Part shown: positions 6,646 through 58,889 of the stretch, one piece after another
How positions within the stretch are numbered: position 1 is the stretch's first letter
Layout: every line of letters starts with the position of its first letter
From: Cyathus striatus
Lineage: Eukaryota; Basidiomycota; Agaricomycetes; Agaricales; Nidulariaceae
DNA: 64,000 bases
Direction of reading: 5' to 3'
Assembly: GCA_025738555.1 (NCBI GenBank)
Contig: JAOVFP010000002.1
Location: 7,254,001 to 7,318,000, forward strand
Position numbers and translations under genes: made by a program
The notes under the pieces: generated by a model
The model's input: the letters and a program-made list of their open reading frames with translations, nothing else
The model's database searches: none
Told to the model about the DNA's origin: nothing

Positions 6646-8216
6646 TCCTTAGCCATGTGTCCAGCTTTAGCACAAAACAAGCAGAGCTTGTTGTCCAAAC
6701 GACGTTTGCGCTCCTCCGGAGTTAACTTACCATCAGGTCCTAATTTACCTGTTAAGTCCGGACCTTGAGAGGTAGGACGGCGTGGTTGGGCTGTAGACCC
6801 GGAGGAAGTGCTCGGAGTAGGTACTGATGCAGTGTTAGAGGTGGAGGCAGCAGGCTCTGCAGGAGTGTTTCCCTGGTTCCTATTGTTGGAAGCCGGAGGA
6901 AGAGTCTTGGAAGGTGCAGCAGCAACCTTGTGACGTCTCTCCTCAATGGCACGCTCAGTACTGTGCTCCCAGTGGCGCTGATCGAAACCCTGGGCCAAAG
7001 CCTTCATAGGCTGAAGGGATTCAGGACAAGGAATCTCCCTGCTGGAGATTTTGTCCTTAATGCGTGGACATAACCCATAGTAGTATTGTGAGGTGAGGGA
7101 TGGGTCGTCCCAATTCAACAAGGTAGCATACTTGTTGAAATCGATTTCGTACGAAGTGATGCGATGGTTGTTTTCCATCTTCAGTGCACGGATCTCCAGT
7201 TCAGCCTCTGCTCGGGGGTTAGTTTGTCCGAAGTGAGTCCGGAGCAAACTAATGAAAAAGAGCCAATCATCCATCCAGCACTCATAAACATCCTCATCAA
7301 GATGTGAACTGAACAAAGCCCCTGCAGATCCCCGGAGAAAAGTTAACATATAGTCAACTTTCGCCTGGTCACTGTTGTAAAGGTGGGGGTTGTTCCGGAA
7401 ATTTAGGCGGCGCTGAGTTAGGAATGCATCCAGCTTATCGGTGCTAGAGCCATCGAAGATGTCAGGTGCTTTGACTTTCTTGTCACGTGGTGCAGGAGTA
7501 GGAGGTGGCCGATCCATAATGCGCTCGACTATAGTAGTCAGAGCACCAACCACATCTTCTCCGTCGTAATGACGTCGACGAGGGTGGTAGGAGGATGAGA
7601 GAGAGGAGTGAGAGGAGCCATGAGATGAAGGACCAGAGCCTCCTGGTCTGCCAGGCCCACCAGGAGGAGTTCCTCCATGGCCTGCAGAATCTCCGTGATC
7701 AGAGGGAGGAACTTCATACTCAATGTCACCAAACTGAGAATTACCATCAGAGGGCTCATGGTTGGAGCTGTCCTCAGATGATTCATAACCATTGTCCCCA
7801 TTGCCATTATCTCCGGGTGGAGGTGGTGGCGGAGTACTCCCAGCACCTGAAGGTATAGGTGCTTTAGGGGGTGCTAGACCCAGAGTTGGAGCTCGCGGGT
7901 CGGAGTCAATGGTAGCATGTGGAATGAGTGTTGGGTCAAATGGAAAAACAAGCGGCATGGGTCAGGCATTGCTGACATACTCGAATGCTGGTTGAAGCAC
8001 CCATTGAGCATGTCCGGCCAAGACAGGAATTCTCAAGACCAATGCACTGGCCGACTCTGGAACAGGAGAACAAGAAACAGAAAGAGGTCGCAGGACAGTA
8101 GTCGTATGTTGAGTAGCAGATTGCTGAGAAGCCAAACGATTACTGCGTCGGGCATGCAGCGGGATTGTTTGCTGCTGGTGGCTGTGTTGATGAGCAGTCT
8201 CGGTACGAGTAGCCAT
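6543..8216 (-). pseudogene. gag: gag of element 1, one nonsense codon
   Basis: The best start is the ATG at 8216, about 40 bases after the PBS. The frame meets a TGA at 7962-7964 and continues in the same frame to a TAG at 6543-6545. The retrotransposon-gag domain lies in the middle (around KLDAFLTQRR and NPRAEAELEIRAL), followed by a Ser/Pro-rich linker and a CCHC zinc knuckle, CLFCAKAGHMAKDC. An ATG at 7958 just after the TGA could give a shorter product, but the upstream part reads as coding in the same frame. Confidence 0.85.
6546..6552 (-). promoter_or_regulatory. -1 ribosomal frameshift site, A AAA AAA TAG
   Basis: On the minus strand, seven consecutive A directly precede the gag stop TAG. 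In the gag frame they read A AAA AAA, a canonical X XXY YYZ slippery heptamer. Slipping back one base enters the pol frame, which is open here and lies at -1 relative to gag. Confidence 0.75.
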
Positions 8217-16258: not shown

Positions 16259-17851
16259 ATGCTCACGCTCGTTTTCCTCTTTTTATTAAACACATTTTTT
16301 CAGCCTGTCAACACCTTGCCGCTCGATATTCCTACTGGGAACTATTCCTCGCCCATACAGTTACCAGGCAAGAGCTTGACTCCCATCGCAGCATTATGCA
16401 CCCTCGATCATGCCAAAGGTCTCCCTGCGCGCTCTCTCCCGAGCATTATTTACAGCTGTCTCTCAATCATTGGTCTAATAGCCTGGGTAACTGTACATAT
16501 GAATGTACCTGCTGAAGGCGAAGGAGAGTGGAAATCAAGATGGAATAGATTGAAAACAATGTACTGGGTTCTTATAGCCCCCGACCTGATTACAGCATGG
16601 GCTAATCGGCAACATTGGGGGGCGTAAAGAATTTACCTCGAGTACAAACCACACTGTATGTCCATATCCATATATTTTCAATAGGTCTGCTGTACTTACC
16701 CAAATGTTCCAGATAAACATTGGACTATGGTTCATGCTCACTTCCTTCAAATGGGAGGATTTCATGTATCTATAAATGGTCATAAAGGGGTCGTAGATCC
16801 CGTTGCATTTCGTGCTCTTCTTGCGCAAGGAAAGATACAGTTTCCAATGATGTCGAAAGAAGAGATCCAGGATAAAAGCAAATCTGATACCTTTGCAAAG
16901 TATCTCCTGTATCTACAAGTAATCTGGTTTGGTGTGCAATGCTATGCAAGATTCGACATCGGACTTCCACTTACCCTGTTGGAGGTGACAACTCTGGCCC
17001 TCGTTATGACAAATGGAAGTACAGTACTAACATGGTGGCATAAGCCTTATGACGTCCAAAAACCTATTTTTTTGCAGGCTGCTGATACTTCTCGTCTTTC
17101 CGAAGAGAATTCATCTAGAGACGTAAACAGCGTAGGCGACAAAGATGAAGAGAACTCTTCTAATCTGGCTATGAACATGTACGTGGTGGGACCGAAGACA
17201 CCCCTGCGGGTGCATGTTGATGAATTATCTAATCCGGAGTCAGAAATGGCGACACCGGGCTTACATTTAACCACAGGTAGTAGCCTCCGTAAATCCTACC
17301 GAAATGCAGTAACAACCTCCTGGCACGATGATGGAATTCTGAAAACATTGTGGAATGTGTTGTTTTACTGGCCCATAATGGAACCTGTTCTCGAATTCAC
17401 AGATTCGATGCAACCGTATGACGATCTCACTGGAGTTACCCCATACTATGCAGCAGTGAATACGGCGGCTCGACCTGTATATGGTCTTATATTATTCATC
17501 TTCCTAAATGTAACAAATTTTATGATTGGGAACTTATACGCGTTGGAAGGTTGTAATCATTTCGCATCGGAAGAAGAGCTTTATTTGTATAAGCTATCAA
17601 TATATGGGCAACTCGTTCTACCCTTATCTTATGTGGCCTTCTACATGCTATTTCACCTGCTGAAGGAGAAAGGGTGTCACCGTTGGATTTACAACGCTAT
17701 CCATGGGGTTCAAACACTAATTGTTATTGCCCTAATGGTAGCACGATTTTACATTGTAGTGGAAGTTATTATATCATTTTGTTCACCCCTCCCGTCTGGC
17801 GTGCTCATCAACGTACCCGGGTCGTGGACAGACTTCATTCCGCACATCTAA
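16259..17851 (+). pseudogene. Y1: fungal multi-pass membrane protein, nonsense codon in exon 1
   Basis: Exon 1 (16259-16655) begins with a signal peptide (MLTLVFLFLLNTFFQPVNT). It continues through one membrane segment and the motif LIAPDLITAWANRQ. A 57-bp intron (16656-16712) matches in phase the intron of the minus-strand relative at 45089-45143. Exon 2 (16713-17851) starts with MVHAHFLQMGGFHV, then WWHKPYDV, several hydrophobic segments and an ending in SWTDFIPHI. In exon 1 the codon at 16625-16627 is TAA where Y2 has AAA, so the normal product would stop before the intron. The family is known to me only as expanded Agaricomycete membrane proteins of unknown role. An internal start at 16727 would give 374 residues lacking the N-terminal part. 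Confidence 0.75.
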
Positions 17852-23115: not shown

Positions 23116-23296
23116 TAAACGCATGACCTCAGTGTCTCGTTCCACGCCGCTACCGCTGTTCCCGCGCTTCTCTCTGCCACTGGGGGCCGAATCCCTGTCG
23201 TATCGTCGCTCGTCATAACCGTTGCCGTTGCCGCCGTCGTTGATTTATTGCCGTCGTTTTATCGTCATTATCGTCGCTCGTATCGTATTTGCTGCC

Positions 23297-24124
23297 ATGT
23301 CATCAGACACTAAATTTGACAAACTCACCGAGGGAAATTATCAGGAATGGAAAATTTATATGGAGGCGCTACTAACTCGAAAGAGTCTTTTGGAGTATGT
23401 TGACGGAACCACGAGACATCCTGGGGGGACTGAAGGTTCTAAAAAGGTTAAGGATTTTTACAGGAGACAGGCTGAGACACGAGCCGAAATTATTCTTCAT
23501 GTAACGGCTTCCCAACTCGTTCACTGCCGCGATTCGGACCCTTACAATATCTGGACTTCCCTCTCCAACATTCATTCGTTCCGCAGTCGGTCCACTATTA
23601 TTTCACTCCGTTGTCGTTTCCATCGCATTCGCCTCGAATGCTCCGAGACCATGCCTGCCTATATTTCTCGTGTCCGCCATCTCGGTTTTTTACTTGAAGA
23701 AACTGGAGTCCAGGTTAGTGACGATGAATACATCATTACCATCACTGCAGGACTTCCCCATTCGTATGACCCTTTTTTGATCTCAATTGACACACTGCCG
23801 GATTCGGAATACATGCTCGCAAATGTCATCGCACGCCTCAATAATGAATACCAGCGCCAACATATGTATTCAACCTCTCCCCATATATCGACCTCTTCCT
23901 CTGCGCCTGTTGATGAAGCCATGGCCATTGTGCCATCATCTTCCAGTTCTTCTTCTCGTCTTAGCCAGATCACCTGCTTCTCATGTGGCAACAAGGGTCA
24001 CTATCAAATCAATTGCCCATCTCGCACTGCCACCTCCACACGACCTGCCCCACCGACGCCCTCTGTCAAAGCTCAGGAACAAGCCGCATTTGCTGAGGGA
24101 ATTGATACCGACGATGAATTTTAG
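23297..24124 (+). CDS. gag: Intact copia-type Gag (275 aa)
   Basis: The frame is open from 23222, but I choose ATG 23297 (MSSDTKFDKLTEGNYQEW) because copia-type Gag proteins begin this way. Residues 1-200 form the UBN2/Retrotran_gag-type domain (KLTEGNYQEWKIYMEALL; ITAGLPHSYDPF). A Ser-rich linker leads to a CCHC zinc knuckle, CFSCGNKGHYQINC, at about residue 228. The C-terminus is short and acidic (EGIDTDDEF), ending where a protease would normally begin. I see no lesion. It should form particles able to package the element's RNA if a partner supplies Pol. Confidence 0.88.
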   Translation: MSSDTKFDKLTEGNYQEWKIYMEALLTRKSLLEYVDGTTRHPGGTEGSKKVKDFYRRQAETRAEIILHVTASQLVHCRDSDPYNIWTSLSNIHSFRSRSTIISLRCRFHRIRLECSETMPAYISRVRHLGFLLEETGVQVSDDEYIITITAGLPHSYDPFLISIDTLPDSEYMLANVIARLNNEYQRQHMYSTSPHISTSSSAPVDEAMAIVPSSSSSSSRLSQITCFSCGNKGHYQINCPSRTATSTRPAPPTPSVKAQEQAAFAEGIDTDDEF

Positions 24125-39394: not shown

Positions 39395-41009
39395 ATGCTC
39401 ACACTCATTTTCCTCTTTTTACTAAACGCATTGTTTCAGCCTGTCAACACTTCGCCGCTTAATATTCCTACTGGGAACTATTCCTTACCCATGCAGTTAT
39501 CAGGCGAGAGCTCTACTCCCATCCAAAATTTACACCCTCGATCATGACAATGGTCTCACTCCGCGCTCTCTCCCGAGTATTATTTACAGCTGTCTCTCAA
39601 CCATTGGTCTAATAACCTGGGTAATTGTACATACAAATGTACCTGCTGAAGGCGAAGGAGAGTGGAAATCAAGATGGAATAGATTGAAAACAATGTACTG
39701 GGTTTTTATGGCCCCCGAGCTGATTACAGCATGGGCTAATCGGCAACGTTGGGGGGCGAAAAGAATTTACCTCGAGTACAAACCACACTGTATGTCCATA
39801 TCCAAATATCCCCAATAGGTCTGCTGTACTTACCCAAATGTTCCAGATAAACATTGGACTATGGTTCATGCTCACTTCCTTCAAATGGGAGGATTTCATG
39901 TATCCATAAATGGCCATAAAGGGGTCGTAGATCCCATTGCATTTCGTGCTCTTCTTGCGCAAGGAAAGATACAGTTTCCAATGATGTCGAAAGAAGAGAT
40001 CCAGGATAAAAGCAAATCTGATACCTTTGCAAAGTATCTCCTGTATCTACAAGTAATCTGGTTTAATGTGCAATGCACTGCAAGAATCATCGTCGGACTT
40101 CCATTTACCCTGTTGGAGATGACAACTCTGGCTCTTGTTGTGGCAAATGGAACTACAGTAATAACATGGTGGCATAAGCCTTATGACGTCCGAAAACCTA
40201 TTTTTTTGCAGGCTGCTGATACTTCTCGTCTTTCCGGCACTGACGGGAGCAGTACGCTAACAGAAGAGAATTCATCTGAAGCCGTAAACAGCGTAGGCGA
40301 CAAAGATGAAGAAAACTCTTCTAATCTGGCGATGAACATATACGTGGTGGGACCGAAGACACCCCCTTGGTTGCACGCTGATGAAATATCTAATCCGGAG
40401 TCAGAAATGGCAATGCCGAGCTTACTTCCAACCACAGGTAGTAGCCTTCGTAAATCCTACCGCAATGCAGTAACAACCTCCTGGCGCGATGATGGAATTC
40501 TGAAAACATTGTGGAATGTGCTGTTTTACTGGCCCATAATGGAACCTGTTCTCGAATTCACAGATTCGATGCAACTGTACGATGATCTCACTGGAGTTAC
40601 CCCATACTATGCAGCGGTGAATATGGAAGCTCGGCCTTTATATGGTCTTATATTCTTCATCATCCCAAATGTAACAAATTTTAATATTGTGAACTCATAC
40701 GCGTTGGAAGGTTGCGTTCATTTCGCATCGGAAGAAGAGCGTTATTTGTATAAACTAGCAGTATATGGGCAACTCGTTCTACCCTTATCCTATGTTGCCT
40801 TCTACATGTTGCTTCACCTGCTGAAGGAGAAAAGGAGTGACCGTTGGATTTACAACGCTATCTATGGGGTTCAAACACTAGTTGTTATTGCCCTAATGGT
40901 AGCGCGATTTTACGTTGTAGTGGAAGTTATTATATCGTTTCGTTCACCCCTCCCGCATGGCGTGCTCCTCAACGTACGGTGGGCAGACTTCGTTCCGACC
41001 TTTAACTAA
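39395..41009 (+). pseudogene. Y2: fungal multi-pass membrane protein, frameshift in exon 1
   Basis: Exon 1 (39395-39789) starts with the same signal peptide as Y1. It is two bases shorter, because a stretch near 39525 that reads CCCATCGCAGCATTATG in Y1 reads CCCATCCAAAATTTA here. This puts the rest of the exon out of frame. The intron (39790-39846, 57 bp) and exon 2 (39847-41009) are intact. Exon 2 carries HAHFLQMGGF, WWHKPYDV and at least five hydrophobic segments, and ends NVRWADFVPTFN. An internal ATG at 39861 would give 382 residues without the signal peptide. Y1 and Y2 have different exon 1 lesions, so neither lesion was inherited from the ancestor. Confidence 0.75.
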
Positions 41010-43658: not shown

Positions 43659-45540
43659 CTATATGTGAGGGAAAAAGTTCGTCCACTCCAAGGTCTCGAA
43701 CGCAGAGGGAGGAAGAGCTCGAAGTGACAAAAAGGCTTCCACGAGTAGATAAAGCCGTGCCACCACATAGAAAGGAAGCACAATCACAATCACAACCCCC
43801 GTAATCCCTACAAAGATGTTTAAACACACATGCTGCCAATCCTTGTCCCTATGTACCGAACCAATGCGATCTTCGCACATTACATGGAGTGATAAAATAC
43901 CTACATCTAATAATGGTACTATAGCAGTCAAGATCGATGAAATTCGCCATAATGTTCTCTCCGCTGTAGATGGGAAGTCTGAGTTCCATGCAATGCAGTG
44001 GACCAGTCCAAGCGCAACTGTGGATAACACAAATATGACGATAAAGATTAAAACCATGATGGACTCTTGTAATCCACCACTATCTTTAACTATACTTTCA
44101 TCTTCATCGTCGTTAGTAGAATCTGCCATGTAGTATGTGCTAACTCTTGTTCTTTCTGTTTTCTCCTTATCATCATATAGAAATTTACCAATCGGATCCA
44201 AAATCGTCCACATAAACATTATCCGGAAAAGATTAACGAGAACAAAATCGTCTTCATCAAATGCTTTAGCCACTCTATCTTTGACAGTATTGAATATTGA
44301 CATTGGTGCTGAGAAAATGGTAATGATCCATAATGGACCAGGTTCTACACCAGTACTTCGTTGTTTGCTAGTTTCTGGAGTGTAATAGTCGGTGTCTATC
44401 TGAGGCACTTCCAACAATTCGGAACATTCACTTCTGTAGTGAGACTGCAATAGTTCGATCCCACTGTGTTCGCCATCATGCCCTTCATTTATGATCACTG
44501 GAGATTGAACAACTGCTGTATTATCTGCTGAAATCGAGTCAGGGATGTTGGATAGGATTTTGGATGTTGAGCTGTCAGCTTTAGCATTATTTACATTATC
44601 CAGTGAGGGGTAGTTGTCACAGGAAGCCTTGTTATGCTCATCAGCTAATTCCTGTGAGACATTCTCCTTGTGTTCCATATTTAAGGTGCTGCTTACAGCA
44701 TTAGATTTCATGTCTACAGTCTTATCCAGAAAGACTGGTTGCCGAACATCAAAAGGCTTATGCCACCATACGATGGACAGTATAAATGTGCATGAGATAA
44801 TGCTGAGTGTGGTCACCTCCAGCTGCGCCAAAGCTAGTCCTTGCACATGCCTTGCGATACATTGTGTAACAAACCAGAATACCTGAGCGACAAGAATAAT
44901 CTTTGACAGGCCATTCGCTTTGCTTTTATCTGCAATATCTTCTGCTGAAATATTGGGGAATGCAATCTCCCCTTTCTGAAGGAGGTCGTGAAACTGGTCT
45001 GGATACAAGACAGTGGTTCTGTGGCCATCTCTGTATTGAAATCCGCCCATCTGAAGGAAGTGGGCATGCTTGATAGTCCACTCACGATCTGGAACATAAA
45101 TGTTTAAGTAATTGATCACCATAAACTTTGAGTTAGAGCTCACCTTGCCGTTTGTACCTTTTGCAAAGCATACTTGCACCACCCAGTTGATGAATGGCCC
45201 AGTACATAACAAGTTCTGGAGCTATCAAAGTCCAATACATCGTTTTCAGCCTTCTCCACAGAATCTTCCAGCTCTCTTCATTCGGAGCTGGAATATTCAT
45301 ATGTACAGATGACCACGTGCACAGAAAGATTGTCGATATGCATCCCCATACAATGCCCATCATAGAGCGGTGGTTGCAATTACAATTCGCTGTGGAACCA
45401 TCGGAAGCCGCATCAACGAATAACAAGTATAAAGCGTGAACAGCCGTAGAATTTGCGGTAGTATTTAGAATTGGAGAAGCGTCGACTGGCTGCAATGATA
45501 TGTTGCGGAAGAGAAAGTAAAATAGTATATATATGAGCAT
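43659..45540 (-). CDS. Intact multi-pass membrane protein of the Y family (608 aa)
   Basis: Two exons, 45540-45144 and 45088-43659, are joined by a 55-bp intron (45089-45143; GTGAGC donor, TTACTTAAAC branch region, CCAG acceptor). I start at ATG 45540 because it opens with a signal peptide, MLIYILFYFLFRNISLQPVD; the frame is open 38 codons further up. After a cysteine-containing N-terminal segment come a membrane helix (residues about 60-79), IAPELVMYWAIHQ (106-118), HAHFLQMGGFQ (140-150) and a pair of helices ending in WWHKPFDV. A loop of roughly 170 residues rich in Ser, Asp and Glu follows. Then come further helices and the end LEWTNFFPHI. It shares intron position and phase with Y1 and Y2 but is much diverged and has no lesion. 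I know no function for this family. Confidence 0.85.
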
Positions 45541-45807: not shown

Positions 45808-46990
45808 TGATACGCATGTAAACGAAAACAACGTACCCAATTTAAATTTCGTTATATCTCGATTTCGAGATACCAGTACCGGGCATGTAGAGTGAGGAAA
45901 CAGCGGGGAGGGGCTGAGTTCCCGCGCCGCCTCCCATAAATCACTAAGGGAATAAAAACAAATACACCTATTAAAAACACAACTCCACCTCAGTACTGGT
46001 TTTACACTCTTTAAAACAAATAAATACACAATACTTTACCTTTTACAAATGATGTTGTAGCCTAAACATGAGTATTACGATGCCCAGAAAAGACTATATG
46101 ACCATGACAAAGTCAGCACGAGTTACAAAGTATGGATCCAGACAAAACACGAACTTACCAAGACCGTAAGCAACCCAGACCATGAGACACGAGACACGAG
46201 ATTAGTGAGCTTGAGTGACGACGATGAGGGAACGAGACAATGGAACAACAAGACAGCGAGACAGAGAGGGCGAGCGCGAGAAGTGGGGAAAGGAAGCAAG
46301 AATGGACAGTGAGCGAGTACCCCAACAGTCAGGAGTTCACGCGGGAGCGGAAAACCGACCCGCGAGACCGATGTAAATGAAATGATGTGAAGCGGCCGAC
46401 GCTGCCGCATCGGCTGATTACCCGATTAGGAAGGTAACCGATGGGACGCTCAAACGAGCGCGCGTCGCAGAAAGGGAGCGCGTTGGGTTATGCGCACGAT
46501 TGGCTGACCGCCGCCTGGGTGCTGACAATGCGTTACCTTACAAATGAACCGGGGAAATACCGGATCTCAAATAGAATGTTATTACTATGCAATTTGTAAG
46601 TAGAGTAGGTAGAAAAGGTATATAGTAGACGAAGAGGGAAGAAATAAGGCAGGAACTGCCAGGCATTCTTCCCTCCTGCAGATAGGGTGTGTAAAGACGA
46701 ATCAGACAAGAATCAGAATTAGTTACGAGACGTTTAGATACCGAGAACTATGTACCGAGTTTGCTGAATTGAATCTGAACATTTTGACTTTGAAACACTT
46801 TGACGCGTGAACGAGAATAGCCCGAGTTTAACTTGTTCTATTTTTAATCTGATCTAAATTTGGACTTGAATATTATTGCGCCCCTCGAACTTACTGAATC
46901 TACACCTCGGGATATTAAGTTTATGATTGTATTTGGAATTGCTATTCTAAGTATTAAATAAACTAACTACTCTCGTCGTGTGACTCAACA
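45808..46990 (+). repeat. 5' LTR of element 2
   Basis: 1183 bp. It contains antisense open frames of 95-96 codons that are equally present in the other LTR; these show only LTR identity, not a gene. Confidence 0.93.
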
Positions 46991-46992
46991 TT

Positions 46993-47010
46993 TGGAGCCC
47001 ACCGCGAGGG
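46993..47010 (+). other. tRNA primer-binding site of element 2
   Basis: TGGAGCCCACCGCGAGGG starts two bases after the LTR. The same 18 bases begin two bases after the LTR end at 63419. It would pair with a tRNA whose 3' end has U before CCA. A tRNA-Cys is a candidate because of the GCUCCA end (weak inference). Confidence 0.8.
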
Positions 47011-47125
47011 GGTGAGGGTTCAATTCCAGACAAAGACATTTTATAAAAAGACAATAACTTCAAAATAAAAAATCGAAAAACCGTTGAAAAATCACGGAAA
47101 AATCAGATTAAATTACTAAGTCATT

Positions 47126-48913
47126 GTGGCTAGTGATAAAGCACGTAAACGAACGTCCCGCACTTCGCAGAAAGCAGGATTTGAAGTTTTAGAGCTACCT
47201 GTCAGAAAAAGAGTCAATAAAAATAGGAATCAAATTGAAGGCACTTCTACAGAACTTGTAACACAGTCAACAAATAACTTAGAAGGAGAACCTGAGATAC
47301 AGAGACCTATAGTTGAGACAGAAATTGAGACAAGTACAGTGGATCAATATTACATTCCTGGTGCTTTTTCAATACCAAGTCCACCACCTGAATTATTGAG
47401 TGAGGACTCTGACGGATCAGAAGTAATACAAGCATTAGCAAATACTTTAAGTCAGATCACTCTGGCAGACTTATCAGATAGAGAAAGAGAAGAGGAAATA
47501 AATCCTCTACCAGTATTTGGACCCCCAGAAAGACCACAGACTCCACCACCTGCACCACCTTCAGATAGTGACTCAGAAGACGAAATGGCAAAGGGAATCC
47601 CTCCACCAACAAGTCGTGATAGTCCACAGTGGAATGGAGATGGTAGACGATTAAAAGATTGGCTAAGACAGTTGGAGATGCTCTATGAACATTATGGGGA
47701 GATAGGAGGAAAAAAGCGAGTAAGACATGCAGTGGGATGTATTGAGAAGTATGAAGTGGCTGAGATAGTAGAAAAATTTGCTGAGTCCAAAGCTGATAGC
47801 TGGGAAAAATTTAGGCAAAGACTTTTGACAGAATATGATCCAGATGAAGGGGAAGAGTATGGATCTGCATCAAAGTTAGAGAGAATGGCCAGAAAGCAAA
47901 GACTGATTGGTGATGGTGATTTTCGTGAATGGAAAGAGTTTAAAAGAGCATTTGTAGATGAAGCTGAAAAGGGTGCTGAGCCGGAGAAAAATAGTTTGTT
48001 TACAAACCGTTTCCTGGTGAACACTCTTGGTAGTGTATTTACAGAAGACTTTAGAGAGAAGTTGAATACACACTTGCGATTCATGGACTCTAAAGTTGTA
48101 TCAGATGAAACTTCACCAAAGAAAAGACTGAGAGAGGACCCCTATATTCTGAAAGAAGTTGTAGCAGCAGTGGACAAATTGATGGACACAGCACCAATAG
48201 GTGGAGTTGCAAATTTGTACACAGAGATTGGTGGGAAGTCTGGAAGTATAATCAAAAAGGAAGTAATGGAGAGTGCACTTGCTGGAAGTAGTAAAGACAG
48301 CTATGACAAAGTGCAAAAGGAGATTGAAAGTTTACGGAATGAGATGAGAACTTTGCTGCAGAGTCAAACAGCACTTGTACAAGCACAAAGTAATCAGTAC
48401 CGGCCCCCTGTAAATAATTGGGGACCACCACAGAATACAACATATCAATTCCGGAACCCAGTAAATCCAGGGACAGGAGGATATGGAGGACGTGGCATGA
48501 ACCGTGATTGTCACTATTGTGGGAATTGTACTGATGGACTACGAAATTGCAGGGTGCGAGCAAAAGACTTGCAAGATGGTTTGATAAAAGAGTTATCAAA
48601 TGGTAGAATTGTGATGGGAGCAAGTGGAATGTCGGTCTTTAAACGTGATGGACCACTTAGACGAGAAGTTGAAAGAATAATGCAGATGAAAGAATCTGAA
48701 ATAAGACAAGTCCCACAAGAAGGGAAAGTGACACTTCTTCAAAATACTGGAAGTGGAATGGAACCACCAGCACATTTGTTACAACAGATGCAGCAGTACT
48801 CTGGATGGTTTGAAAGACAAGGCTGGAGTGTACCTTCACAAATGCAAGGAAGTAATGAACAGTACTTGCAGACAAGGGGGGGTAAAGAAACCAATCCTAA
48901 CTCGGATTTTTAA
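47126..48913 (+). CDS. gag: Gag of element 2, apparently without an AUG start
   Basis: The frame opens after TAA 47117-47119. Its first plausible codon is GTG 47126, with A at -3 and G at +4. No ATG occurs in frame until codon 154, inside the conserved region. Residues 1-150 are acidic and Pro-rich. Residues about 160-330 are the gag domain (WNGDGRRLKDWLRQLEMLYE). A cysteine cluster CHYCGNCTDGLRNC at about residue 471 sits where a zinc knuckle belongs but lacks its histidine. The frame ends at TAA 48911-48913, overlapping the pro frame, which is open from 48901. Confidence 0.8.
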   Translation: MASDKARKRTSRTSQKAGFEVLELPVRKRVNKNRNQIEGTSTELVTQSTNNLEGEPEIQRPIVETEIETSTVDQYYIPGAFSIPSPPPELLSEDSDGSEVIQALANTLSQITLADLSDREREEEINPLPVFGPPERPQTPPPAPPSDSDSEDEMAKGIPPPTSRDSPQWNGDGRRLKDWLRQLEMLYEHYGEIGGKKRVRHAVGCIEKYEVAEIVEKFAESKADSWEKFRQRLLTEYDPDEGEEYGSASKLERMARKQRLIGDGDFREWKEFKRAFVDEAEKGAEPEKNSLFTNRFLVNTLGSVFTEDFREKLNTHLRFMDSKVVSDETSPKKRLREDPYILKEVVAAVDKLMDTAPIGGVANLYTEIGGKSGSIIKKEVMESALAGSSKDSYDKVQKEIESLRNEMRTLLQSQTALVQAQSNQYRPPVNNWGPPQNTTYQFRNPVNPGTGGYGGRGMNRDCHYCGNCTDGLRNCRVRAKDLQDGLIKELSNGRIVMGASGMSVFKRDGPLRREVERIMQMKESEIRQVPQEGKVTLLQNTGSGMEPPAHLLQQMQQYSGWFERQGWSVPSQMQGSNEQYLQTRGGKETNPNSDF

Positions 48914-50160
48914 CAAGTCCAAGGAAGGAGCGGCACCAATCACCCAACCAGGTACCACAACCAGTAGCCGCTGGTACTCCGGAGGAAGAACTTAGGCCAA
49001 AAAGTGTACAGCACAATATACCCAATGAGATAGATTCTGTTTCTAATGTTCATGAAGGCATTTCTGTGCCTATGTTAAATAAAAGAAAAGTACAAAATAA
49101 GAAAGATGAAAAAGACTCTACAAAAATAAATAATCAGAAAAACTCAGAAAAAATTATGTTACCATTTCCCGAACGTCCTTTTAAACATGTAACACCATTG
49201 GAGATGGCACCTGGCCATCTACCTATCAGACTAGATGAGTTAGACAGAAAACTGCACCGCAATGTGGCACCAGTTGAACAGAATGTGAATGTTTCAGATG
49301 TTGTTGAGAAAATGATGCAGGCAGAAATAACTCTGACAAACCGAGAATTGTTAGCAGTATCACCAGCTACAAGGGCAGAGGTACAAAATGCTACAACAAG
49401 TAGGCGTATAGAAGTTGAAGTTAGCCAAGTAGAAGAAAACAAAATAAAACAGAGTGTGGTACCAATCAGAACAGTACATATGGAGGAAGTGGATGATGAT
49501 GATGCTCCACCTGTACCAAGTCAACCAAAACTAAGAACTATATTGCTAAGTCAGTTAAAGTTGGATGATCCAAAACGTAGACCTTTCAACAAAAACAAAC
49601 AAGGCAAAGAAATGGAATCGGGATGGGGTTGGCAGTTAAGTGACTTAGCTGTTCAGTACTTTCACAACAAAACTGCAGACAAATGGCAAGCCACTGAACT
49701 TGTGTGTGCAGCCAGAGAGTCAGAGTCTTTGAGGGCTATAAAAGGACTTGTGAATGGACAGGTAGAAAAAGAAGCGTTGTTGGACAGTGGTTCACAGATC
49801 ATCACTATGAGTAAAAAGGTTGCAGAAACTTGTGCCATTTCATTTGATCCCTCTGTGAAAATCAAAATGCAGAGTGCAAATGGAGAATATGAGATGACAT
49901 TAGGACTTGCACGAAATGTACCTTTCAAAATAGCTGGAGTGACCATGTACCTCCAAATACATGTGTTAGAGAACCCACCTTATGAATTATTGCTAGGACG
50001 TCCATTTGACTGCTTAATGGCAAGTAGTATTCAGAATGAATTAGATGGAGGTCAATATATGACTGTAACAGATCCAAACACGTTTGAGAAAATAACCATC
50101 CCTACACATGAGAGAGGGAAGATGAAGATTATCACCGAAGACAGTCAAAATTTTCATTAA
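48901..50160 (+). CDS. pro: pro frame: aspartic protease of element 2
   Basis: This frame is -1 relative to gag and is open from 48901 to TAA 50158-50160. The first 200 residues are linker. The retropepsin domain follows, with ALLDSGSQIITMSKKVAE carrying the catalytic D-S-G and ELLLGRPFDCL as the second conserved block. It ends just after a slip sequence that leads into pol. I see no lesion. Confidence 0.8.
   Translation, partial: LGFLTSPRKERHQSPNQVPQPVAAGTPEEELRPKSVQHNIPNEIDSVSNVHEGISVPMLNKRKVQNKKDEKDSTKINNQKNSEKIMLPFPERPFKHVTPLEMAPGHLPIRLDELDRKLHRNVAPVEQNVNVSDVVEKMMQAEITLTNRELLAVSPATRAEVQNATTSRRIEVEVSQVEENKIKQSVVPIRTVHMEEVDDDDAPPVPSQPKLRTILLSQLKLDDPKRRPFNKNKQGKEMESGWGWQLSDLAVQYFHNKTADKWQATELVCAARESESLRAIKGLVNGQVEKEALLDSGSQIITMSKKVAETCAISFDPSVKIKMQSANGEYEMTLGLARNVPFKIAGVTMYLQIHVLENPPYELLLGRPFDCLMASSIQNELDGGQYMTVTDPNTFEKITIPTHERGKMKIITEDSQNFH
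48907..48913 (+). promoter_or_regulatory. gag-pro -1 shift site, run of U before the gag stop
   Basis: The gag frame ends GAT TTT TAA. A five-T run lets the P-site phenylalanine tRNA slip back one base onto TTT, entering the -1 frame, which opens at 48901. The overlap of the two frames is only 13 bases, so the shift has to be here. Confidence 0.55.
50148..50154 (+). promoter_or_regulatory. pro-pol -1 frameshift site, A AAT TTT
   Basis: In the pro frame the sequence reads CA A AAT TTT CAT TAA. The heptamer A AAT TTT fits X XXY YYZ exactly and lies one codon before the stop. Slipping -1 enters the pol frame, which is open through this point. pol lies at -1 relative to pro. Confidence 0.65.
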
Positions 50161-53100
50161 TCGATGATTTGATCCCTGATCAAGGAGAGGCAGTGCTAAT
50201 TATGTCATATGAACAAAATGAATTAAAGATGGACAGAATGTATATGAAAGATGATAAACCGATGTTAACAGTACAGGACTTGCAATGTGCATATATGATG
50301 GAACAGGCAAGAGATGGACAACTTGAGGATAAGAAAATGGAGGCATTCTTTTTAAGTTTGACACAAGGGACAACTGGTGAACTTGGCAGTATAAAAATGG
50401 ACAACACTGTGAGAGCGTGTTTGGCTGGAAAGAAATATAAGCCGGTAGCTCAGAAAGTTAGACCAGTGTTAGCTGATGTGCCCCAAGAGTATTACATAAA
50501 GCGTGAAATAAAGGGAAATCCTTTAGAGAATATGCCAGAGTTGCCTGTAAAGCCACCAGACTTTGTTCCAACTAAGAGATACACAGATGAACGAAAAGAT
50601 GAAATGGATAAAGTCCATGGACAGGACTTCTTATGGGATGAAGAATGAAAACTGATGCACTGGATGATAAGAGAACAGGAAGAAGCTTTCGCTTGGGATG
50701 ATACAGAGTGTGGGAAATTCAAAGAAGAATTCTTCCCACCAGTACAAATCCCAGTAATACCTCATATACCTTGGGTAGAAAGAAATATTCCTATTCCATT
50801 AGCACTCCGTGAAGAAGTTTGCAGAATTATCAAGTCAAAGATTGATAATGGAGTATATGAACCATCTAATGCATCCTACCGATCAAAGTGGTTTTGTGTT
50901 GTGAAAAAAGATGGTAAAAGTTTACGATTAGTGCATAGTCTTGAACCATTGAACCGGGTGACTATTGCTCACTCAGGATTACCACCAGCAACTGAAGAGC
51001 TAGCGAATCACTTTGCAGGAAGAGCATGTGGTGGGATTTTGGACTTGTATGTTGGATATGATGAACAAGTACTAGCAGAGAGCTCAAGGGACTTGACCAC
51101 ATTCCAAACTCCCTTTGGAGCACTTAGATTAGTAACTTTGCCTATGGGATGGACAAACTCAGTTCCAATTTTCCATGATGATGTAACTTATATTTTGCTA
51201 GATGAAGTACCGGAATACACTAAACCTTATATTGATGATTGCCCATTGAGAGGTCCAGCTACCCGGTATGAGTTAGAAGATGGAGGTTATGAAACAATCA
51301 AAGAAAACTCTGGAATCAGATGATTTGTTTGGGAGCACTTCCAAAATGTGAACCGAATTCTACAGCGAATGAAGTATTCAGGTGGAACATTCTCAGGGAA
51401 AAAGTCAATTCTGTGTGCAGATGAATTTGAAGTAGTTGGGCACATGTGCTCTTACAAAGGACGTAGACCAACTGCTAAAACAATTAACTCTGTAACAAAT
51501 TGGGGACCCTGTGAAGACTTCAGTGATGTTAGAGCATTCCTAGGAACAGTTGTCCAAGCAAGACAAAACATTCCTAAGTTTGTTGACTTAGCTGCACCAC
51601 TGTACAATCTGCTGAAGAAAAATGTAGAGTTCCATTGGGGTGAGAAAGAACAAGAATCAATGATCCTCTTGAAACGAGCAGTTAAAAATAACTTGCCAAT
51701 TCGCAATCCAAACTATGAAAGTAAACAACCCTTGGTTGTAGCAGTTGACACATCATATATTGCTACTGGGTGGTTAATTTACCAAAGAGATGAAGAAAAT
51801 CCATCTAAAATCTACTATGTGAAATTTGGTTCCAAAACATTGTCTGAACGGCAAGCACGATATTCCCAACCAAAGCGTGAACTGTTAGGACTTCGCATGG
51901 TATTAGAAGAAGAACAATATCTTCTATTTGGATGTAGAAACTTAGTCATAGAGACAGATGCAAAATACTTGTTTGGCATGTTGAACAATCCTGGGAATAT
52001 GCCAAATGCAACTACAAACCGTTGGGTTGACTTTATCCGAACAAATTTCTTCTTTAAGCTTGTACATAAAGCTGGAAAGACATTCGGACCAGATGGGTTG
52101 TCTCGAAGGAAGTTTGCTACTGGTGATCAGACAGATTGGAAGTTTATGGATGAATCTGAGGATGATGAGCAACCATATATCCTTGAAAAGAAATTCACAA
52201 ATGATCCTGATCCTCTTCCATTAGAGGAATTTTATGAAGAAATCGATACCCGAACTGGTTTCCTAATTGCAGAGTCTCCATTAGACATAAATGATGAACT
52301 TAAGGAAGCTAGAGAACAGTATCAAGCTGAACTGGAAGTAAAGCGTAACATAGTCAACAATGAAAATTGTCCTGAACAAGTTAAGCAATACCTCTGTCAG
52401 TTTACAACAGCAAAACAAGTACTCCCTGAACCAGAGTACATTGGACCTTACCCGGAAGAACACCGTTTGGAAGCAAGTCGCATCAGAGATGAGAAAATGC
52501 AATTGCTAAAAGATTGGCTGAAAGATACAAGTGTTACACCGGCTGGTTACACTCCAACACAGTTTAAAACATTTAGACGATTCGCTAAGAAGTACTTCCT
52601 GGATGATGGGAAATTATATCTGAAAGGAGAAAATGGTGAACATAAACTCTATGTTGAAAAACCATACCGAATGTACATGCTTCACTCAGCACATGATGCT
52701 CTTGGGCATCGTGGCACTTATGCTACAACCAAACTGATGTCAACAAGATTTTGGTGGCCACAATTGGACATGGATGTAGAGTGGTATGTGAAGACTTGTG
52801 AAGAATGCCAGAAGCGACAACGGATGTTGTTTGAAACACCTCCAGTGTTAACTGAAACTCCATCATTGTTCCAGACTCTGCATGTTGATACACTGCATAT
52901 GGGGGAAGAATTTGCTTCAAATGGTTGCAAGCGTATTGTGCATGGACGATGTGCTCTTTCATCTTGGCCAGAAGCTAAGGCATTGCGAGTAGAAAATGCG
53001 AGATCCATTGGACAATGGTTATTTGAAGACATTATTTGCCGATGGGGTTGTATACAAAAGATTGTGACAGACAATGGGACACCATTCCTGAAAGCTATGA

Positions 53101-53990
53101 AATGGGTTGAAAATAAATACTCTATCAAAGCGATCTCAATCTCACCATACAACTCCAGAGCAAATGGTATTATTGAACGTCCACACTGGGACTTAAGAAC
53201 AATGTTGATGAAAACATGTGGCAAGAACAATCTTAATAAATGGTATTACTTCTTGCATCATGTCCTATGGGCAGATCGTATAACCCCACGGAGGCGTTTA
53301 GGATGTTCTCCTTATTTTATGGTTACAGGTGCCCACCCAGTACTACCATTTGATCTTAAAGAAGCAACTTGGCTTGTAGAACCTCCTTCAGGGATTATGC
53401 CAACTGAAGATTTAATTGCGAGACGAGCACAAGCTTTAGCTAAACATGTACACCATGTTGAACTTATGCGTGAACGAGTAACTGAAGAAAAAATATGCCG
53501 TCTTGAAACAATGGAAAAAGAAGTAGAACACAAAGTACGAGAATGGATATTTGACAAAGGTGACTTAGTATTAGTACGAAGTCCCAACATAGGTAAAATG
53601 TCAAATCAGAAAGGAAGATATAGATACAACGGTCCATATGTTGTAGTTGCACGAGCAAAAGGAGGCAGTTATGTACTCTGTGAACTTAATGGTGTAGTAT
53701 TGCATCGAAAAATAGCCAGAGTACGAGTAATACCTTATTATGCAAGAAAAAGTATACCTCTACCAGACTCTGTTCAAGAAGTTATTGATTTATCTGAACA
53801 AGGCCTATGGGATATGATTGCAGAAGAAGAGCCAGAAGAAGAAATGCGAAATGACATAGAAGATCTTATGTTTAAAAGTGTAAGACTTAGAAAAGAAATT
53901 GAAGTTGACACTCTAAGTGAGTCGGAAAACGAGTTGGATAATGCTCAAGGAGACTTAGACGAAAATTCGGACTCAGGGCATGAAGAATGA
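50151..53990 (+). pseudogene. pol: pol of element 2 (RT-RNaseH-IN), two nonsense codons
   Basis: One frame runs to 53990, broken by TGA at 50646-50648 and 51321-51323. Both stand where the family has arginine, so CGA to TGA is likely. RT has LRLVHSLEPLNRVT, FGALRLVTLPMGWTNS and an intact YIDD box. RNase H has VDTSYIATG, KRELLGL, ETDAKYLFG and GPDGLSRR. Integrase has the HHCC finger (HDALGHRGTY to CEECQKRQ), a core with D in LHVDTLHM, D in VTDNGTPF and E in IIERPHWD, and a GPY motif (YNGPYVVV). The C-terminus is acidic and there is no chromodomain. Apart from the two stops the catalytic residues are all present. Confidence 0.9.
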
Positions 53991-54097
53991 AGACGGAAAT
54001 TCAGATACTTCATAGCTAAATACATACAAAAGATGTACTCTAAAGAAAAACTACGAGCACTACATCGTCGAGAACAACAGAGGACATGAAACTACAA

Positions 54098-55434
54098 CTA
54101 GAATATAGAAGTAGCAATCAGAAAAAGCAAAATAGAACAGAGAATTATAATTACAGTAGCAGAAGCTGCAGACATCTTATCCAATTCAAAGAGCATGCTC
54201 TTCGTGGCGACAACGGACTGCTCAATCTTGGTAGCAGCGGCGAGGAGGTCAGCGGAACGTTGAGCGATAATCACGTCACGGTACCCTAGAGCTTGACCTG
54301 GCTTGTCAGGATATCGGCGCCCTTCGATTGCATTAACAACATTCATAGCCCAGAGACAAACATCTGGGAACTCTAAAAATAAACGGAGTGAGACAAAAAT
54401 AGAATGAAAATATAGCAGAGAACGACGTACTGGGGAATGTCAAGTCAACGCGGATGCGTTTCTTGGTGACAACCTGAACAAACCGTTTGTAAGATGGACT
54501 GTGCAAATCGATATGAGGAAGGGCCTCGTAAGGTACACGTACGGCCTCAGGACGAGTCTCGGTGGCAGACTGTAATGAAATAGAAAAGATATGTCAGTAT
54601 ACAATAAATTACGACGTAGATAAACCACTCGTACCTGTGTTACAACTGGCATAGGTGTAGCAGTGTCATCCACCTGCATATCAGTGGAGTTCTGTGAAAA
54701 GAATTAAGATAGAAACATCGAAATTAAAGAAAGGAATGCATAAAACATACCAGAGCTGCATCAGTAGCAGGAACGGTTACAGCAGGTACCGTAATAACAG
54801 GTACTTGGACTATGGGAGCAGCTGGAACAGCAGGTACGATAGGTGCAGGAGCTTGGGCAGTGACGACCTCGACATCAGAGTCACTGTCAACAGTCTCGAC
54901 GGACTTAATGACCTTTGCGCGCTAAAACAGAGATAAGAAATGATATGATTTAGCTAAAGATAAAGTAAACAAAACGGAATAAAAGAGACTTACACGACGC
55001 TTGACACCAGTACCAGCAGGAGGCATAACAACAGAGACATTATTACGCTTGCGCTGAACATTGGCACAAATCCGAAACACAGCGTTGTAGTACGGCTCAG
55101 GATGAGCGTAGTCGGCACCACCCTTCTCTGCGAGAGTATGGTACAGTTTGCGCAGGGCAAACATAACCTCCACGAAGTCCACTTCCTTCAAAGTATCAGG
55201 ATAGGCCTCGTGATGGGAAAGAATACGACACTGAAACATAAAGACATGAGTATAGTTGAAAAACGAGTGATTAAAACTACTCACAAGTTCACTGTGAGGA
55301 CCGTCAAGGCTAAGAGCCTTGATGTCGATACCCAGAGACATACAGTTCTGAAGACCTCCGACCTGGTCTCGCAGAATACGGCAAGCACTGACAAAAGTCA
55401 AGGTGTTGGTATAAGATTCGACAGAAGCAGACAT
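54098..55434 (-). CDS. Antisense gene A in element 2: intact six-exon gene, 342 aa, C-terminal membrane tail
   Basis: Six exons join in frame without a stop: 55434-55285, 55230-54994, 54921-54751, 54691-54635, 54569-54431, 54372-54098. All five introns are GT-AG, 54-72 bp, with good donors (GTGAGT, GTAAGT, GTATGT, GTACGA, GTACGT). The start at 55434 (MSASVESYTNTLTFVSACRI) is the first ATG before clean coding. Residues 1-130 look helical and folded; about 131-205 is a Pro/Val-rich, acidic disordered linker. After it lies a helical stretch (DVCLWAMNVVNAIEGRRY), then a hydrophobic tail ending SILLFLIATSIF-stop, which suggests a tail-anchored membrane protein. I recognise no domain. It lies wholly between pol and the 3' LTR, on the opposite strand, so its introns are not removed from the element's genomic RNA. 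Confidence 0.75.
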
Positions 55435-55713
55435 GGTAGACGAAAATAAGAATAGGAGTGGGGGTAAATTTCTTTCGGCCACTTACTCCGTCGTTTTTAA
55501 ATCCCCCTACTAAGATGTTCTATCTCCCAGCTCCATGGCTCGATACGACGGTCGGAACTGTAATAAAACACTTGATTGCGTGATTTTTCCGGTAGGAACT
55601 AGAACAGAGACCCACCTGCAACACGATGCTCTTATCTTGCAGAAATACCGATGTTTTTGCGTAGAAACAGGTGCCTGAAGTGTGGCACAATGTTCTGGCC
55701 AAGGCAGGTAGCC

Positions 55714-55750
55714 GAGGACGGCACTAATTCGTTAGTGACGGGGAGGAGGA
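55714..55750 (+). repeat. Internal copy of the PPT region
   Basis: GAGGACGG..TTAGTGACGGGGAGG closely resembles the sequence just before the 3' LTR (57274-57303: GAGGACAG..TTAGTGATGGGGAGA). It lies upstream of antisense gene A as the true PPT lies upstream of antisense gene B. It may be a second plus-strand primer site or the scar of a duplication. Confidence 0.5.
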
Positions 55751-55944
55751 CTTGATGAAATAATACCAGGCCCAAACCAGACCCATAACCTAGAAAACTT
55801 AAAAGAATGAGCGAAAATTTCGATTTTAACAAATCAAATTGAACTTATTAGACTTAATTCATCTGCACTAAAGAAACTATGAGAACGATCGCGCTTTGGC
55901 AAAGAATTTATTCAAAATTTACGACAAACAAGCCAGATGGTAAT

Positions 55945-56886
55945 CTACACCTCGCTCAAAGTAACGAGCGAAGGCACGCTATCTGAAACAACAGACTGAG
56001 CGCGGTTACGAGACCCCCTATGACCACCACGCTGGCTGCGAGAACCACTACCATGAGCAGTACCATGCGTACGACCCATGGGAAGGGGAGTGATGACGAC
56101 AGGTGGAGGGGCAGGGACAGCTGAGTCCGAACGACGAGGAAGGACGAACTCGTACTGCATGATAGACTCGTAAAACGAGCGCGGAACACGAGTTTGACCA
56201 ATGCCCAACCTGGTCTGAGTCTGAAAGAAAGCTGAGGGCACGCCCATAGCCTGGATTTCGGCACCGGTTGCGGTGATAAAAACGACTCCATCGAGAGGAG
56301 CTGGGTAGGGGAAATGAGCCCTTCCTTGACGGTGTCGGAAAGTCGAAACATATCAACGACCTCGGTAATGGTGACGTTGGAGGAATAGACCCCTTGAGAA
56401 CGAAGTCCAGGAAGTCCACCGAGAGTCTGATAGGCCTCGCGGAAAGCTCGAATGTAATCCAATAAATAATAGCTGTACTTCGCAGCTTGGATATTCGCCA
56501 TGGCAGTGAAAAACTGCAGAGAGCGCTGAGCTTCCAAAACAACTGGAAGACGCACAGCTAGATCTATAAGAAATACATAAGTAGATAAAAGAAAAAGAAA
56601 AGAAAATTGACATACTAAAGGCCAAAACGTCGACCTGACCTTGGGGAGGCTCCGCAACAAGAACATGGGACGGATCGTCCAAACGGAAGCTACAGCAGTT
56701 TGCAGAAGAACCCCTTTTGCAGGTAATACAGGCGCTCCCGGGTGCATCCAAGTTGACAATGCAAGGTATCTTGGAACGCGTGCACTGCGCACAGCTATCA
56801 GAGCGCCGGTTGCTGCGCAAACTGAGCTTGACAAGCTCGTCGACGATGTCGCGGATGTCGAGCAGGGAGGCGCCAGTAGAGGTCAT
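55945..56886 (-). pseudogene. Antisense gene B in element 2: Zn(II)2Cys6-type protein, one frameshift
   Basis: Exon 1 is 56886-56616 and starts MTSTGASLLDIRDIVDEL. Cysteines at residues 31, 34, 41, 52, 55 and 63 give C-x2-C-x6-C-x10-C-x2-C-x7-C, within the fungal binuclear zinc cluster pattern. A 52-bp GT-AG intron (56564-56615) joins in frame to exon 2 (56563-55945). Exon 2 reads as coding first in one frame (AMANIQAAKYSYYLLDYIR) and then, after about 56300, in another (DGVVFITATGAEIQAMGVPS), ending at TAG 55945. A single-base loss near 56296-56316 explains this; no intron fits. The C-terminus is Gly/Arg/Ser-rich. A DNA-binding regulator role is an inference from the cysteine pattern alone. 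Confidence 0.6.
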
Positions 56887-57011
56887 GGTGAACACTGAAT
56901 AAAGATCTCAAGTTAGCCATAAAGACAACGAGAAAGAGGAAAAAGTACCTTGAATACGCAAAAGGAAACAGACAAAGTGCGAGAGCACTAGCACTCGTAC
57001 GCAACCCAGCT

Positions 57012-57290
57012 CTATAAAGGCCAACGGTCAGGACCTAAACCAAGGTCTCGAATAAGATAAAAGAACACATGCAGACAAAGAAAAAGAACATACAGTGTGC
57101 TAAACGATCCACTGGGTGCAATACCCCAGGAATAACTTAATGGCGCATCCAGAACAAACTGCATAGCTTGCCGATAAATCCGGATCGAGATACTGGGTCC
57201 TAAAGCCAGTGCAACGGCAGTTAGGGAAAGAGACGGTAGTCCAGAATAGAAATCCACGCGAACTCGTATGACTGAGGACAGTCATTTGTT
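57012..57290 (-). other. Possible upstream antisense exon next to the 3' LTR
   Basis: Two overlapping frames are open (57257-57012 and 57285-57100). The first reads VDFYSGLPSLSLTAVALALG with coding-like codon use, has an acceptor-like CTGTCCTCAG before it and a GTATGT donor within it. It could be a first exon of antisense gene B or a remnant of a third gene; I cannot decide. Confidence 0.3.
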
Positions 57291-57293
57291 AGT

Positions 57294-57303
57294 GATGGGG
57301 AGA
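57294..57303 (+). other. Polypurine tract of element 2
   Basis: GATGGGGAGA ends directly at the first base of the 3' LTR. Confidence 0.7.
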
Positions 57304-58486
57304 TGATACGCATGTAAACGAAAACAACGTACCCAATTTAAATTTCGTTATATCTCGATTTCGAGATACCAGTACCGGGCATGTAGAGTGAGGAAACAGC
57401 GGGGAGGGGCTGAGTTCCCGCGCCGCCTCCCATAAATCACTAAGGGAATAAAAACAAATACACCTATTAAAAACACAACTCCACCTCAGTACTGGTTTTA
57501 CACTCTTTAAAACAAATAAATACACAATACTTTACCTTTTACAAATGATGTTGTAGCCTAAACATGAGTATTACGATGCCCAGAAAAGACTATATGACCA
57601 TGACAAAGTCAGCACGAGTTACAAAGTATGGATCCAGACAAAACACGAACTTACCAAGACCGTAAGCAACCCAGACCATGAGACACGAGACACGAGATTA
57701 GTGAGCTTGAGTGACGACGATGAGGGAACGAGACAATGGAACAACAAGACAGCGAGACAGAGAGGGCGAGCGCGAGAAGTGGGGAAAGGAAGCAAGAATG
57801 GACAGTGAGCGAGTACCCCAACAGTCAGGAGTTCACGCGGGAGCGGAAAACCGACCCGCGAGACCGATGTAAATGAAATGATGTGAAGCGGCCGACGCTG
57901 CCGCATCGGCTGATTACCCGATTAGGAAGGTAACCGATGGGACGCTCAAACGAGCGCGCGTCGCAGAAAGGGAGCGCGTTGGGTTATGCGCACGATTGGC
58001 TGACCGCCGCCTGGGTGCTGACAATGCGTTACCTTACAAATGAACCGGGGAAATACCGGATCTCAAATAGAATGTTATTACTATGCAATTTGTAAGTAGA
58101 GTAGGTAGAAAAGGTATATAGTAGACGAAGAGGGAAGAAATAAGGCAGGAACTGCCAGGCATTCTTCCCTCCTGCAGATAGGGTGTGTAAAGACGAATCA
58201 GACAAGAATCAGAATTAGTTACGAGACGTTTAGATACCGAGAACTATGTACCGAGTTTGCTGAATTGAATCTGAACATTTTGACTTTGAAACACTTTGAC
58301 GCGTGAACGAGAATAGCCCGAGTTTAACTTGTTCTATTTTTAATCTGATCTAAATTTGGACTTGAATATTATTGCGCCCCTCGAACTTACTGAATCTACA
58401 CCTCGGGATATTAAGTTTATGATTGTATTTGGAATTGCTATTCTAAGTATTAAATAAACTAACTACTCTCGTCGCGTGACTCAACA
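57304..58486 (+). repeat. 3' LTR of element 2
   Basis: 1183 bp, identical to the 5' LTR except for one CG/TG difference that I can find. Confidence 0.93.
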
Positions 58487-58889
58487 TAACGCTGGAGGAA
58501 CAGCAGTACTAAATTTAGAATAAGAAGCTCTCAGGCTCGGCCTGGGCCATGTCTGTGGAGGCAGCAGTGAGCAGGAGCCTGGAGGCTATACCACTCAGAA
58601 GCGCCAAACCACAGATATGACATAGCCAAGAACAAACAGTTACTAACAAGGGACCACATATCATACTTATATAGTCTTGCGTATAATGAGAAGAGACATA
58701 TAGTTTCAAAAAGGGCACATGTATTCTGACGATGGGGCCTGCAGTCACTTGACAGCTGCAATTTAGCTTAGGTACAATTATATACTATAGCTTTTATTGT
58801 CCTAGGACATCGATCAGGTCGAGAAGTAAGAGAGGTTGTGGCCCGTCCAACATCTATGAGTAGTTTCCTGTGTTGTATTTCATGAAGGC
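58487..58889. other. Right flank of element 2, nothing recognised
   Basis: Host side of the insertion, after the TAAC duplication. No gene or repeat boundary is seen. Confidence 0.35.

Follow-up and report, generated by a model that had tools for sequence, protein, structure and literature searches.

A two-gene, intron-bearing antisense cassette as a probable resident part of a Ty3-type retrotransposon lineage in Cyathus striatus

Retrotransposons normally lose introns when they are copied via spliced RNA. In the fungus Cyathus striatus, a 64,000-nucleotide stretch of contig JAOVFP010000002.1 (positions 7,254,001 to 7,318,000; here, the window is this whole stretch) carries a Ty3-type element in which 53991-57303 reads as spliced genes on the strand opposite to gag and pol. 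The locus raises the question of whether such genes are accidental cargo, as a sequence-only reading of the window had framed them, or belong to the element itself. An intron-bearing gene pair kept through many rounds of copying does fit the rule, since antisense introns are hidden from splicing of the sense RNA. From a comparison with copies and relatives in the same genome, we conclude that 53991-57303 is probably a resident accessory cassette of a Ty3-type lineage, consisting of two protein-coding genes, B then A, that run antisense toward pol.

Structure of the element and its antisense genes

The Ty3-type LTR retrotransposon spans 45808-58487, with its gag and pol frames in the sense (+) direction. 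The 5' LTR (45808-46991, + strand, 1184 bp) is paired with a 3' LTR at 57304-58487 (+), and their pairwise alignment gave one mismatch in 1184 aligned bases, which points to a young insertion. The 4 bp TAAC on both flanks of the element was identified by eye as the target duplication, which may include the last aligned LTR base. The frame at 47120-48913 (+) is named gag by position and had no Pfam gag match above the cut-off. The pol frames (48901-53990, +), which comprise protease, RNase H and integrase, are interrupted by two in-frame stops, placed from the ORF limits at 50646-50648 and 51321-51323. Above the Pfam cut-off, the gag-pol frames matched gag-asp_proteas, RT_RNaseH and Integrase_H2C2, the reverse transcriptase core frames at 50112-51323 not being among the queries; for integrase, the search of the pol frames returned the zinc domain only and no core domain. 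Protease, then RNase H, then integrase is the Ty3 (Metaviridae-type) order, and paired LTRs and a target duplication are likewise present. With the pol stop at 53990 and the 3' LTR start at 57304, 53991-57303 is the whole interval between them, exactly where the sequence-only reading had placed the cassette.

Gene A lies on the minus strand from 55434 to 54098 in six exons. Removal of five GT-AG introns (intron 1, 55231-55284; intron 2, 54922-54993; intron 3, 54692-54750; intron 4, 54570-54634; intron 5, 54373-54430) leaves a frame open over 342 codons without lesion. Automatic splice models made without homology were wrong; the final model, including each of the five introns, was confirmed by copies of the gene. 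The spliced antisense gene of six exons and 342 codons that had been read from the sequence is thus borne out, as is its freedom from lesions in a copy whose gag-pol has two stops. Gene A and pol face each other tail to tail, with 107 bases between the end of the gene and the pol stop.

Gene B extends on the minus strand from 56886 to about 55945, with exon 1 at 56616-56886 and an intron at 56564-56615. It has the two exons and single intron previously described, but that description overlooked a frameshift in the window copy, where, in comparison with its relatives, a length difference of one base near 56280 splits exon 2 into two frames; in the copy L019 the gene is open throughout. Exon 1 encodes a Zn2Cys6-like motif, C-x2-C-x6-C-x10 to 12-C-x2-C-x8-C, whose six cysteines are invariant in four diverse sequences, the other three being 37-62% identical to the first. 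No Zn_clus match above the Pfam cut-off was obtained for gene B, and one far relative alone gave a match below it (11.6 bits, with 21 needed).

In profile searches gene A had no Pfam match and no PDB match better than E 0.72. Neither Pfam nor PDB supported a function for either gene, and Pfam gave no match in either to Transposase_28 (Retand TRP28) or another known aORF domain. Searches of a protein database of uncertain fungal coverage returned relatives of both proteins only in Cyathus striatus; their identity to the gene A copies examined here reaches 88%. Gene models of this species contain both proteins; by eye, one of them (P0006) has gene B followed by a segment resembling gene A's last exon, which suggests the same order, B before A, in a second assembly. 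AlphaFold2 models of the two protein families were unusable (mean pLDDT 40.4 and 40.5).

In the window element, gag and pol have CpG observed/expected ratios of 0.34 and 0.44, against 0.92 for gene A, 1.00 for gene B and 1.21 for the LTR, in agreement with the earlier remark that the cassette is richer in CpG than gag-pol; the last 460 bases of pol, at 0.77, are an exception. Gene A has ratios of only 0.12 and 0.06 in the copies L025 and L026, which indicates that CpG decay acts after insertion.

Inspection by eye of the rest of the window found a second long gag-pol frame set that reads like a Ty3-type element (2833-7961, -), a frame containing a CCHC knuckle and resembling a Copia-type gag (23219-24124, +), and three related multi-pass membrane-like proteins (16685-17851, +; 39819-41009, +; 43659-45221, -), which are a local gene family beside the element.

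Conservation and genomic distribution of the two genes

A DNA search of the genome (107 Mb, 24 contigs) yielded ten collinear copies of gene A including that of the window (WIN), one of which (L024, on C5) was matched in pieces. When the window introns were projected onto the ten-copy alignment, all five were kept in place, with GT at 47 of 50 donors and AG at all 50 acceptors; the exceptions are AT at intron 1 in L022 and L023 and GC at intron 4 in L024. Their persistence through retrotransposition, which had been proposed, is what placement on the strand opposite to the genomic RNA would lead one to expect. The frame is open in WIN, L019, L022, L023 and L024, has internal stops in L025 and L028, and shifts, as projected, in L021, L026 and L027. 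Among the seven frame-keeping copies, that is, with the latter three omitted, dN/dS (NG86) was 0.08-0.22 in 21 of 21 pairs at dS of 0.34-2.6, the lowest ratios being rough on account of saturated dS. These values indicate that gene A is under purifying selection; a ratio of about 1 between copies, which the sequence-only reading had named, together with a lack of splicing in every copy, as a sign that the frames are not genes, was not obtained.

For gene B, the 184 codons that precede the lesion were compared in nine copies, with L026 omitted and stop codons skipped. Ratios were 0.09-0.20 in 17 of 36 pairs and 0.34-0.79 in six, all of them inside the older group L021, L022, L023 and L027, as expected of copies decaying after insertion; the remaining 13 pairs gave no dS owing to saturation. 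As the frames of both genes are conserved with their introns over many loci, they are not chance frames.

The 80 matches from a protein search of the genome with gene A were grouped manually. They represent 21 loci, of which 18 are strong, with a best E at or below 1.5e-11, and three are weak, with a best E between 0.0017 and 0.0098; among the weak loci, only that on C12 was followed up. Eight of the strong loci are not close copies (37-50% protein identity per piece). At 17 of the 18, pol was found within about 3 kb and always on the opposite strand; the eighteenth (L043) retains the exon 1-2 part only, with no pol in the 5.5 kb around it. The corresponding search with gene B gave 17 manually grouped loci, 15 of which adjoin a copy of gene A. 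The other two are a fragment beside an LTR piece in L030 and a match at C7:3424099. Among the loci examined in the genome, which were all but the C7:3424099 match for gene B and two weak ones for gene A, no free-standing intact homologue of either gene was seen. On these comparisons, genes A and B occur almost only beside one pol lineage, in fixed order and orientation. The L030 fragment (L030:4696-5826) stands directly beside an LTR head fragment in a stretch with no pol match, and is a rearranged or deleted derivative.

The association extends to distant elements. In six relatives whose pol is 68-72% identical in DNA (L031-L036), a gene A homologue was present in all six and a gene B homologue in four (L031, L033, L035, L036); a seventh, at C7:3453867, has both, from search alone. 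Gene A was modelled in L031, L032, L033 and L036 at about 42-46% protein identity, by models picked for similarity to the window protein and hence biased that way. Introns 1, 2, 3 and 5 occupy matching places in the same phase in all four; for intron 4, three models give another phase and the fourth did not recover it. The final intron in every model is an artefact of the scoring.

Still farther relatives were sampled among the pol matches listed (40 scored of 86 candidates), at least 19 of which had no strong gene A match. Five were examined: L041, picked for a weak gene A match, and L042, L044, L045 and L046, which had none listed. Their pol pieces are about 42-50% identical, apart from one 25-residue piece at 72%. 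A gene A profile gave 11 matches at E up to 1, distributed over all five loci and all opposite to pol, with a best E per locus of 1.6e-9 to 2.3e-4, and no match at that threshold in a 50 kb control, the rest of the window. Gene A is thus found antisense behind pol in five of the five far relatives examined. A strict six-cysteine pattern that permits no further cysteine in its gaps occurred antisense, once each, in seven of 12 scanned loci (L041, L042, L044, L031, L033, L035, L036), and neither in L045 and L046 nor in the 50 kb control; it misses the close copies L019, L022 and L024 because of an extra cysteine in their motif. In the far relatives the gene B profile scored weakly, at E 0.0017 and 0.91, and the control also matched, at E 0.26 and 0.77.

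The framing of the segment as cargo is not supported, given its fixed order and orientation beside pol, purifying selection and its presence with pol only about 42-50% identical. The cassette looks like a long-kept working part of the element and not an accidental load.

Recombination and copies without the cassette

Compared with eight copies, the window element is 95-98% identical in gag (47130-49130) and 93-96% in the last 2 kb of pol, whereas gene A is 75-86% identical in the five of the eight that carry it. In the same five, third positions at the pol end differ by 7-13% and gene A introns by 21-36%. Against L019, identity in 200-base bins is 94-100% at the pol end, 71-82% over 54000-54800, 98-100% over 54800-55600 and then 71-96%; from this sliding profile the row of L020, misaligned over pol, was left out. 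By block, identity to the window is 72-76% in the 3' half of gene A, 78-98% in its 5' half, 70-82% in gene B, 82-87% in the LTR head and 74-94% in the LTR tail. In a run test over 763 variable sites, 13 of 45 pairs had a longest shared run that was reached by at most one of 1000 shuffles. Correlations between neighbouring blocks over 15 copy pairs were 0.88 for pol with the 3' half of gene A and 0.85 for gene B with the LTR head, and -0.08, 0.11 and 0.33 for the other three, low values that would follow from breakpoints within the cassette and the LTR. The cassette and LTR blocks, mostly far more diverged than gag-pol (93-98%), are by all these alignments a recombining mosaic. Template switching between co-packaged genomes is the usual, established cause of recombination in retroelements.

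Two further interpretations were considered and set aside. The correlation between gene B and the LTR head need not be a sign of co-adaptation: physical linkage explains it equally well, since pol and the adjacent half of gene A are correlated to a similar degree (0.88). Positive selection as the cause of the divergence was rejected because introns have diverged further than exons in all pairs but L019-L023 and L022-L023 (43 of 45).

Two observations concern the LTRs. For one element, the 5' end (L038) and the 3' end (L023) aligned over 594 bp only, with 92% identity; its two LTRs may come from different elements. An LTR search of the genome pointed to many LTR-like copies: of 386 first-look candidates 40 were scored, and most of those scored were not near a listed pol match, so solo LTRs look common.

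Three copies (L017, L018, L020) retain gag-pol and lack both genes. They share the remnants left at the edges, which would fit the spread of a single deletion variant. They make up three of the nine near-identical-pol copies among the matches listed (the others are WIN, L019, L021, L022, L023 and L027), a count that omits a pol fragment on C13 and partial gag copies on C10, C2 and C8. Transposition thus needs no cassette in cis; help in trans is possible. L020, the only cassette-free copy dated, has an LTR pair identity of 98.3%, and the window and L019 have 99.9% and 99.8%. The sequence-only reading had held that a one-off capture would be indicated if other copies lacked the segment and the genes occurred alone elsewhere: the first is true of these three copies, and the second is opposed by the 15 of 17 gene B loci that adjoin gene A and the 17 of 18 strong gene A loci that adjoin pol. 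As in the class termed aORF-3R, the coding sequence lies antisense between pol and the 3' LTR and is carried by most copies of the lineage, despite the three that are without it.

Relation to known antisense genes and probable role

Three alternatives to a resident cassette were considered. Capture of a host gene pair by one element, in which it is now a passenger, would explain the spliceosomal introns, the CpG and GC content unlike that of gag-pol and the existence of Cyathus striatus gene models; we regard it as improbable, given that no free-standing intact homologue was seen among the loci considered and that position beside pol is fixed at nearly all strong gene A loci, with deep conservation. 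An ancient capture that predates the diversification of the lineage is possible and compatible with a resident cassette. That the antisense RNA itself matters, forming double-stranded RNA with the genomic RNA and tuning silencing while the proteins are incidental, has been raised for plant antisense ORFs (in the part of PMC7264820 consulted), and the tail-to-tail arrangement of gene A and pol makes overlapping transcripts plausible. Constraint at the protein level, seen in the low dN/dS of gene A and in the kept intron phases, makes this account very improbable. The sharp identity border on the pol side of the cassette, and the gene B fragment directly beside an LTR fragment in L030, would suit a separate mobile element nested in the retrotransposon; yet some borders lie within gene A and their places vary from pair to pair, as recombination would produce, no terminal repeats or target duplications were noticed at the cassette edges (by inspection rather than a dedicated search), and copies outside the retrotransposon are nearly absent, so that we consider a nested element extremely improbable.

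A resident cassette has counterparts elsewhere, compared here on excerpts of the cited papers. In plants, Ty3 elements with antisense ORFs between pol and the 3' LTR include maize Grande (gene23), rice RIRE2, Retand (with a TRP28 domain) and PvRetro13; the ORFs are described as present in most copies of a lineage and of unknown function, with nucleic-acid binding and regulation suspected (PMC7264820; PMC11963269). They share place and strand with the Cyathus cassette, and likewise its presence in most copies of the lineage. The Cyathus cassette differs in having two genes, with five introns and one intron, and a fungal host; its genes, without a Pfam match, are not of the TRP28 family of Retand. 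A term search of the main text of both papers did not find the word 'intron'. The brtn gene of Boty/BcGypsy1 in Botrytis cinerea is an antisense gene between pol and the 3' LTR of a fungal Ty3 element (PMC7264820; PMC8365987), and is likened to the cassette by position and not by sequence; it is one described gene, in an ascomycete. In HTLV-1 (HBZ) and HTLV-2 to -4, antisense proteins arise from a spliced antisense transcript from the 3' end, and HBZ and APH-2 act on transcription (PMC3185765). The likeness is that of spliced antisense genes at the 3' end of an LTR element, with no sequence relation implied; HTLV is a retrovirus, and the HTLV-1 antisense transcript starts in the 3' LTR. In Didymium, a homing endonuclease gene lies antisense inside a mobile group I intron, contains a spliceosomal intron and is expressed in vivo (PMC9548176). 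There too the antisense gene belongs to the mobile element itself and is split by spliceosomal splicing sites, but the element is of another kind and the gene has a single intron of 47 nt. The terms 'antisense' and 'introns' were absent from the main text of a survey of fungal LTR elements (PMC3248453; term search), and in the titles and abstract openings of the open-access literature no multi-intron antisense accessory genes of an LTR retrotransposon were found. By position and persistence, the Cyathus cassette can be assigned to the architectural class of the plant and Botrytis antisense ORFs; what is new in it is the presence of two genes, six introns in all, deep conservation and protein families without known relatives.

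As to how the resident cassette works, genes A and B would be transcribed from the antisense strand, and splicing would remove their introns from the antisense mRNA alone. The sense genomic RNA would retain the introns, so that its reverse transcription would copy the genes with introns in place. Protein B may bind nucleic acid, for example its own LTR, through its zinc-cluster-like motif, with protein A as a putative partner. Blocks of cassette and LTR would be reshuffled onto a near-uniform gag-pol by template switching, as reverse transcription moves from one co-packaged RNA to another. We infer, at about even chances, that the role of the cassette is control of the element itself. A fuller scheme, doubtful as a whole, would have protein B recognise its own LTR within an antisense regulatory unit of two spliced genes; cassette and LTR would co-diversify to escape cross-regulation or host silencing and be swapped among elements that share one gag-pol engine, and antisense placement would preserve the spliceosomal introns through the RNA cycles.

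The role that antisense accessory genes play for LTR elements, an open matter in plants and fungi alike, becomes directly testable with this lineage, which offers young intact copies of the genes, cassette-free sister copies as natural controls and recombinants between cassette and gag-pol.
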